Below, piece by piece: positions 53,707-54,049 of a stretch of DNA of 54,049 nucleotides; the stretch's first letter is position 1, and every line of letters starts with the position of its first letter. Source of the DNA: Gemmatimonadota bacterium. Its GTDB lineage: Bacteria; Gemmatimonadota; Gemmatimonadetes; Gemmatimonadales; Gemmatimonadaceae. The notes under the pieces are model-generated. The model did no database searches. It had not been told where the DNA came from and saw only the letters and a program-made list of their open reading frames with translations. The stretch covers positions 1 through 54,049 of the forward strand of contig JAJTGR010000034.1 in the NCBI GenBank assembly GCA_021299375.1. The letters are read 5' to 3'. Position numbers and translations under genes: made by a program.

Positions 53707-54049
53707 AACGGCGGCGCCACCAACGGCGGCGCCACCAACGGCGGTACCACCAACGGCGGCACCACCAACGGCGGCACCACCAACGGCGGCACCACCAACA
53801 GCGGTACTACAAACGGCGGTACCACAAACGGCGTCATGGCGACGGCGTGATCACGAACGGCAGTACGGCGAACGGCGGTACCACACACGGCGGCAACACA
53901 CACGGCGGTACCACCAACGGCGGTACCACCAACAGCGGTACTACAAACGGCGGTACCACCAACGGCGGTACCACCAACGGCGGTACCACCAACGGCGGTA
54001 CCACCAACGGCGGTACCACCAACGGCGGTACCACCAACGGCGGTACCAC
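53707..54049. repeat. 15-bp minisatellite (AACGGCGGTACCACC unit), running off the right edge
   Basis: About 21 units with period 15 are visible. Units 53707-53826 (eight) are followed by a degenerate patch (53827-53855) and units from 53856 to the edge. Because the period is a multiple of three and lacks stop triplets, all frames are open inside perfect units: NGGTT on plus, VVPPL on minus. The pair AACAGCGGTACTACA then AACGGCGGTACCAC occurs in both blocks (53797 and 53931), showing block duplication. A minus-strand frame enters from the right edge (about 72 codons of PPLVV, stop at 53834) and could be a Pro-rich protein tail. The 53670-53706 spacer is featureless. Confidence 0.85.

Follow-up and report, generated by a model that had tools for sequence, protein, structure and literature searches.

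A 15-bp tandem array beside a symporter gene, likely one arm of a proposed S23 hairpin element akin to the 23S rRNA IVSs

The window analysed here, a stretch of 54,049 nucleotides, is the whole of contig C88 in a Gemmatimonadota genome (G000) of 4.48 Mb and 116 contigs. At its right edge a symporter gene is followed by a tandem array that runs to the last base, and the same units reappear at the end of another contig, C41. The features concerned are these.

51768..53669, + strand: sodium:solute symporter (SSS) gene; the ORF spans 51579..53669, with the start at the ATG at 51768
53670..53706, no strand: short G-rich spacer from the symporter stop codon to the first regular unit, by direct reading
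53707..53826, + strand: putative arm, first block, eight 15-bp units, by TRF and unit reading
53827..53856, + strand: core, AACGGCGTCATGGCG ACGGCGTGATCACGA, with a 1-bp phase slip; exact core match at 53832-53852
53857..54049, + strand: putative arm, second block, at least 12 units in shifted phase, stopping at the contig end, by TRF and unit reading
C41:143730-144041: S23 gene (23S rRNA-intervening-sequence protein), PF05635 at 72.7 bits against a cut-off of 33.8

The symporter matches TIGR00813 at 102 bits, under the model cut-off of 184, and its orthologues (E<=1e-100), found in 27 of the 30 genus genomes including its own, mark the locus in congeners. The array starts 37 bp past the symporter stop codon and fills 53707-54049: 343 bases and 22.9 copies of a 15-bp unit with 84% matches (TRF score 441); as 54049 is the contig end, the assembly gives a minimum for the number of units. 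Its lag-15 identity of 0.84 compares with a mean best-lag value of 0.37, and a maximum of 0.46, in 1060 contig windows of the same length, which rules out chance or low complexity as its source. The array contains eight exact copies of AACGGCGGTACCACC and 16 units within two mismatches, and AACAGCGGTACTACA occurs twice; eight units lead into two divergent core units with a 1-bp phase slip, after which the second block continues in shifted phase. The large two-block minisatellite with a duplicated unit that the initial annotation described is thus what the sequence holds. Elsewhere in the window, 24267-24348 is a 12/24-bp tandem repeat of ACGCTCCTGC units, unrelated to the right-edge array.

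That annotation had also stated that no stops are possible in any frame, and had read NGGTT on one strand and VVPPL on the other, conceivably as the tail of a proline-rich protein entering from outside. Stops fall within the array in three of the six frames, including a TGA at 53848-53850 on the plus strand and two minus-strand frames, so neither pentapeptide is one continuous reading across both blocks and a coding repeat is ruled out. With its position between the ends of genes and its internal stops, the array also leaves no room for the proposed protein tail.

The same annotation had suggested looking for further copies of the unit across the genome, and this gave the decisive lead: 31 sites, 19 of them with inverted pairs. 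By BLAST the window array finds 31 matches in its own genome, several as inverted neighbours. Their common half element consists of tandem units of type ACGGCGGYACCNNNN followed by GTCATG-NNN(N)-ACGRCGTGATC, and half elements usually stand in facing pairs with a short loop between them. With up to three mismatches, the core pattern occurs 49 times in this genome and its reversed control 3 times. R1, a model of the half element built from sequence only (27 rows), yields 89 matches at E<=0.01, which fall into the 31 sites; 17 of the 19 sites with both orientations are strictly inward-facing. R1 matches the window array at 53806-53857 (47.6 bits), and the core of that array also terminates half elements elsewhere in the genome. 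Many arrays start almost directly at a stop codon, a few bases away. According to a simple GC3 heuristic, used for all gene calls on the context of arrays and S23 genes, the neighbours of 23 classed sites are convergent at 10, tandem at 11 and divergent at 2.

The exact core GGCGTCATGNNNACGRCGTGATC turned up in two stretches of other GTDB-220 genomes, both read as chance and without surrounding arrays; with one mismatch allowed, the sole match in 29 congeners is in G009, where there is no array. Related repeat families in G014 and G020 were revealed by the model only. The pattern ACGGCG-N9, repeated three times, is present in 47 of 179 family genomes. It stands well above its reversed control in G072 (Gemmatirosa; 205 versus 2), G156, G155 and G012; these excesses may reflect additional families of 15-mer arrays outside the genus, although some of the places listed hold other unit sequences and may be coding repeats.

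Read inwards from its right end (position 144333), C41 shows these units, the core and, behind them, the S23 gene, which also matches TIGR02436 at 78.5 bits (cut-off 24). A single contig of G020 carries gene X, array, S23, array and symporter in that order, with a related unit, and in G003, G009 and G013 an S23 gene follows the symporter in antisense, with inverted repeats of other sequence around it. Given this shared order, C88 and C41 are very probably neighbours and the window array the symporter-side arm of the S23 gene, a join based on synteny and not on a read. By synteny, what lies to the right of the contig end is an S23 gene whose stop codon comes before the array, and not a proline-rich protein tail.

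The S23 genes of the symporter locus fall, with five others, into one clade of 11 (support 90/95), so the locus was probably inherited, with both arms turning over in step; S23 looks anciently inherited here rather than newly inserted. Three species, G015, G019 and G025, carry a solo hairpin, that is, an inverted array without S23, where their relatives have the gene. In the symporter tree these species are sister to an S23-bearing one, so their solos are best read as loss of S23 with the arms retained.

The predicted model of the C41 protein (pLDDT 92.5) has as its best Foldseek matches 2gsc (E 2.3e-05), an S23 relative from Xanthomonas campestris, and 2rld, with weaker matches to Avd (4dwl) and to the Avd subunits of a DGR RNP (8ub7). 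From profile and predicted fold, we identify it as an S23/23S_rRNA_IVP four-helix-bundle protein. S23 is under purifying selection: dN/dS lies between 0.06 and 0.26 in 16 pairs, aside from one pair without any amino-acid change. The 2gsc protein is described as a toroid of five bundles (PMC4990558, PMC3936711), which makes nucleic-acid binding a plausible role for S23. In G758, a 1.5-Mb genome from the Gammaproteobacteria search, there are about ten near-identical, low-scoring PF05635 matches; the two that were read (L404 1111-1783, L404 being G758:C1:5000-24000) look like Avd genes of the DGR type, with an RT-like ORF start behind.

Inverted repeats also flank S23 genes at many other loci. 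In the genus, each S23 gene was scored by aligning its upstream flank of 600 bases with the reverse-complemented downstream flank of equal length; we fixed a threshold of 17 after the first control maximum (16.5, among 65 genes of the same genomes) and then kept it. PF05635 was found in 28 of the 30 genus genomes (110 matches). The genus set comprises 63 of these matches, from 11 better assembled genomes, with one contig-edge match in G014 left out, and 62 were scored, one having too little flank. With identical settings, a flanking inverted repeat above 17 surrounds 46 of the 62 S23 genes of the genus and 14 of 29 in other Gemmatimonadota (30 loci listed, 29 passing a 120-nt flank limit; 13 of 28 at a 150-nt limit). 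It surrounds 12 of 30 in Gammaproteobacteria, with a further 2 of 11 additional gamma genes, and 12 of 24 on plasmids of cyanobacteria, Riemerella, Azospirillum and Gemmatirosa (24 of 33 records, the near-duplicate pairs L333/L375 and L371/L372 included). This leaves no repeat above 17 at 16 of 62 genes in the genus, 15 of 29 in the phylum, 18 of 30 in the gammas (plus 9 of the 11 extra) and 12 of 24 on plasmids.

The controls are far lower in all four data sets. When the upstream flank of one S23 gene was paired with the downstream flank of another, scores above 17 came up in 122 of 3782 pairs in the genus, 14 of 812 in the phylum, 15 of 870 in the gammas and 10 of 552 on plasmids (1.7-3.2% over the four sets). 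In 400 kb from the genus, randomly placed windows with matching geometry gave 5 of 1460, and a single stretch, found to contain an S23-less inverted repeat, accounts for three of the five. A first plasmid run with 400-nt flanks had given 11 of 24, against 9 of 287 random windows near S23 genes. In the window's own genome, a second S23 gene on C12 has arms of another sequence than the window family (score 61.5), and a third on C27 has a downstream flank of 122 nt, too short to judge. The same architecture is found inside the single-contig genomes G001-G003.

Where the neighbours of S23 genes with flanking repeats could be called, 37 of 41 have a convergent gene at the 3' end and 25 of 41 lie between convergent genes. 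On plasmids, S23 genes also occur within operons, as in nrdB, S23, nrdA (L334) and cas6, S23, cas4 (L331, L337). The latter two are type I-D loci of Anabaena sp. 90 and Pseudanabaena galeata with arms above 17; on a plasmid of Picosynechococcus sp. PCC 7003 (L370), S23 has cas10 and cmr3 as neighbours in a type III-B locus, with arms at 14.5. A search of phage records for S23 gave no match.

The median distance from the S23 stop codon to the start of the arm is 12 bases, and arms reach up to 532 nt. Outside the genus they are mostly heptamer arrays: 7 is the strongest period in 11 of 14 above-threshold arms of the phylum, 11 of 12 in the gammas and 9 of 12 on plasmids, with units such as TAGGGAG in Nostoc edaphicum, GGGGAAT in two other Gemmatimonadota and GGGTGAT in a gammaproteobacterium. 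Of the 46 genus cases, 8 have 7 as the strongest period, 6 have 15, 8 have another value and 24 show no clear period.

At the symporter locus the two arms change together. Left and own right arm score 29, 52, 84, 76 and 53 in five species, and cross-species arm scores are 8.5-18.5, with one pair at 27; the element of the window's own locus (L009) has a flank score of 30 with a shortened right flank and 29 with 230-nt flanks, and its orthologues score 52-106. The initial annotation's suspicion of hypervariability is borne out between species, where the arms are almost wholly different; in this comparison, with one genome per species, there was no support for its other suggestion, phase variation. 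Matching within a species combined with divergence between species suggests that one side is copied from the other in a folded state. In one case, where G000 has a solo array between two genes (L030), G014 has at the corresponding place a long inverted repeat whose sequence is unrelated (L389), so that the site is conserved and the arm sequence replaced.

No S23 gene was seen at the other sites of the repeat family examined in the window's genome. A comparison of 32 S23-less arrays with every S23 flank gave matches above 20 for 31 of them, and the best-matching S23 arm lay in the same genome for 24 of the 31, where 2.4 would be expected; this test is partly circular, as the own genome's family supplied both the R1 model and most of the solos. 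Two solos were found independently. The one at the symporter locus of G015 has its best S23 arm in its own genome at 74.5, the next, from another genome, scoring 22; the one in the G014 control stretch has its best in its own genome at 83, the next scoring 46.

There are also signs of rearrangement and copying. Between G014 and G020, whose S23 proteins are 93% identical, the gene has the opposite orientation with respect to the genes around it, as expected from recombination between inverted arms; a flipped cassette serving as a host switch was considered, and one flip only was seen. In the draft genome of G015, two S23 elements on different contigs (L265 on C4, L266 on C24) have S23 genes identical at 347 of 351 nt, arms about 93% identical with higher-order units of about 120 bp, and unrelated flanks. 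This pair is a candidate for a recent copying event. None of the loci studied showed a transposition event with target duplication and clean empty site, and the S23 element is putatively mobile.

Taken together, we think it fairly likely that the window array forms one arm of an S23 element, meaning a hairpin element that is kin to the IVSs of 23S rRNA. Such an element would consist of an S23/IVP gene between two inverted tandem-repeat arms, set between the 3' ends of convergent host genes. The arms would fold into a hairpin, and a folded arm could serve as template for the repair or replication of its partner, by which complementarity would be kept while slippage adds and removes units. The S23 protein, with its Avd-like fold, may bind the folded arms and so aid the persistence of the element, its copying or its insertion into other hairpins. 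Solos would be copies that lost S23 or never had it, and 23S rRNA IVSs (a stem, an S23 ORF and RNase III excision) would be members that landed in rRNA hairpins.

The same loci could be read the other way round, with the hairpins belonging to the host as terminators or 3'-end protectors, and S23 a passenger that prefers to settle in hairpins, like IVSs in rRNA helices, and has no effect on the arms. We regard this as unlikely, though it accounts naturally for S23 genes with flanking repeats lying between convergent genes (25 of 41) or facing a convergent gene at their 3' end (37 of 41), for solos directly after stop codons with 10 of 23 classed sites convergent in the window's genome, and for the solo hairpins of G015, G019 and G025 where relatives have S23. 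It sits poorly with the plasmid operons (L334, L331, L337), in which S23 has heptamer arms within tens of bases, and with the symporter-locus solo, which is nested in the S23-bearing part of the tree and looks like a loss. We also considered REP- or BIME-like repeats that a tyrosine transposase of the RAYT type would mobilise, S23 having no part in the movement, an improbable reading to which the genome offers several likenesses: arrays that are extragenic, palindromic, present at many sites per genome, in inward-facing pairs and at gene 3' ends, with a core that here starts CGTCAT. However, Y1_Tnp (PF01797) is absent from G000, a single genome that is 96% complete, and was detected in 5 of 14 control genomes, and a RAYT-driven REP was rejected on that result. 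The arms are, moreover, tandem arrays of up to 532 nt as against palindromes of 20-40 bp, a single core half-site shows by eye no clear hairpin, and the gene partnered with the arms is S23.

Template switching occurs at quasi-palindromes, and a neutral minisatellite built by slippage and subject to such correction would yield arms that are coupled within species and divergent between them, as seen here, with neither part selected and S23 present by chance. We hold this to be highly improbable, as S23 genes of several phyla lie between arms, unlike the 65 control genes or the random windows. That the array is a protein-coding repeat or an assembly artefact is almost certainly wrong: it does stand at a contig end, and long minus-strand ORFs can be drawn, but three of six frames are stopped across it, and the architecture recurs in the single-contig genomes G001-G003 and on one contig of G020.

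More speculatively, and with less than even confidence, we suggest that heptamer repeats, 23S rRNA IVSs, the S23 genes of CRISPR operons and the 15-mer arrays form one class of hairpins, with S23 as a dedicated partner that maintains or spreads them by acting on the folded arms. We know of no function for S23/IVP, widespread as the family is, and of no partner protein for the intergenic heptamer repeats after decades of listing. The presence of S23 inside inverted tandem-repeat arms in several phyla places both in a common, testable frame, and S23 within inverted repeats in many bacteria points to an overlooked class of hairpin elements. In the openly available literature we found no paper that ties S23 genes to inverted tandem repeats.

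Several known systems share parts of this architecture. Short intergenic tandem arrays are known as the heptameric repeats GGGAATC and GGGGATT of Xanthomonas and Nostoc, which in Xanthomonas form 70-75 inverted convergent pairs per genome (PMC4692102), and as TAACTGA repeats (PMC4679880); the elements described here resemble both, and neither source contains the words S23 or 'four helix'. REPs and BIMEs are likewise extragenic, inward-facing palindromic repeats at gene 3' ends, and Di Nocera et al. describe GTAG and CGTC REPs in these terms, the CGTC class being without a known transposase (PMC3733652). The window's core has CGTC, but the element differs in its array arms and its S23 partner, and it fails as a REP/RAYT system because there is no RAYT in G000. 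PF05635 is said to resemble Avd of diversity-generating retroelements (PMC10053308), and the fold is the same (4dwl, 8ub7); unlike Avd, the S23 genes that were read have no RT or variable repeat beside them, and the Avd-type copy in G758 looks different. The S23 genes in cas loci, 18 in one account, have been taken as CRISPR-linked (PMC3936711), and we offer the alternative reading that they may be hairpin-element genes.

A close parallel is with the intervening sequences (IVSs) of 23S rRNA. The account of the Coxiella burnetii IVS describes an S23 (IVP) ORF within a stem of complementary ends, and cites Ralph and McClelland (1993) for a mobile origin of IVSs with the ORF as mobility component (PMC4990558). 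S23 elements likewise place a gene of the PF05635 family between complementary, stem-forming ends, and they resemble IVSs, as that source portrays them, in being sporadic among relatives and inserted where a hairpin pre-existed (PMC4990558). They differ in lying outside rRNA at many sites per genome, in having 7- or 15-bp tandem arms and in the existence of S23-less copies. A further difference is that purifying selection acts on S23 here, while the protein of Coxiella is believed not to be produced in vivo (PMC4990558). The window element is not a strict IVS, because it is located between the symporter gene and gene X and not in 23S rRNA. S23 elements of this kind would extend the old proposal of mobile 23S rRNA IVSs to such sites.
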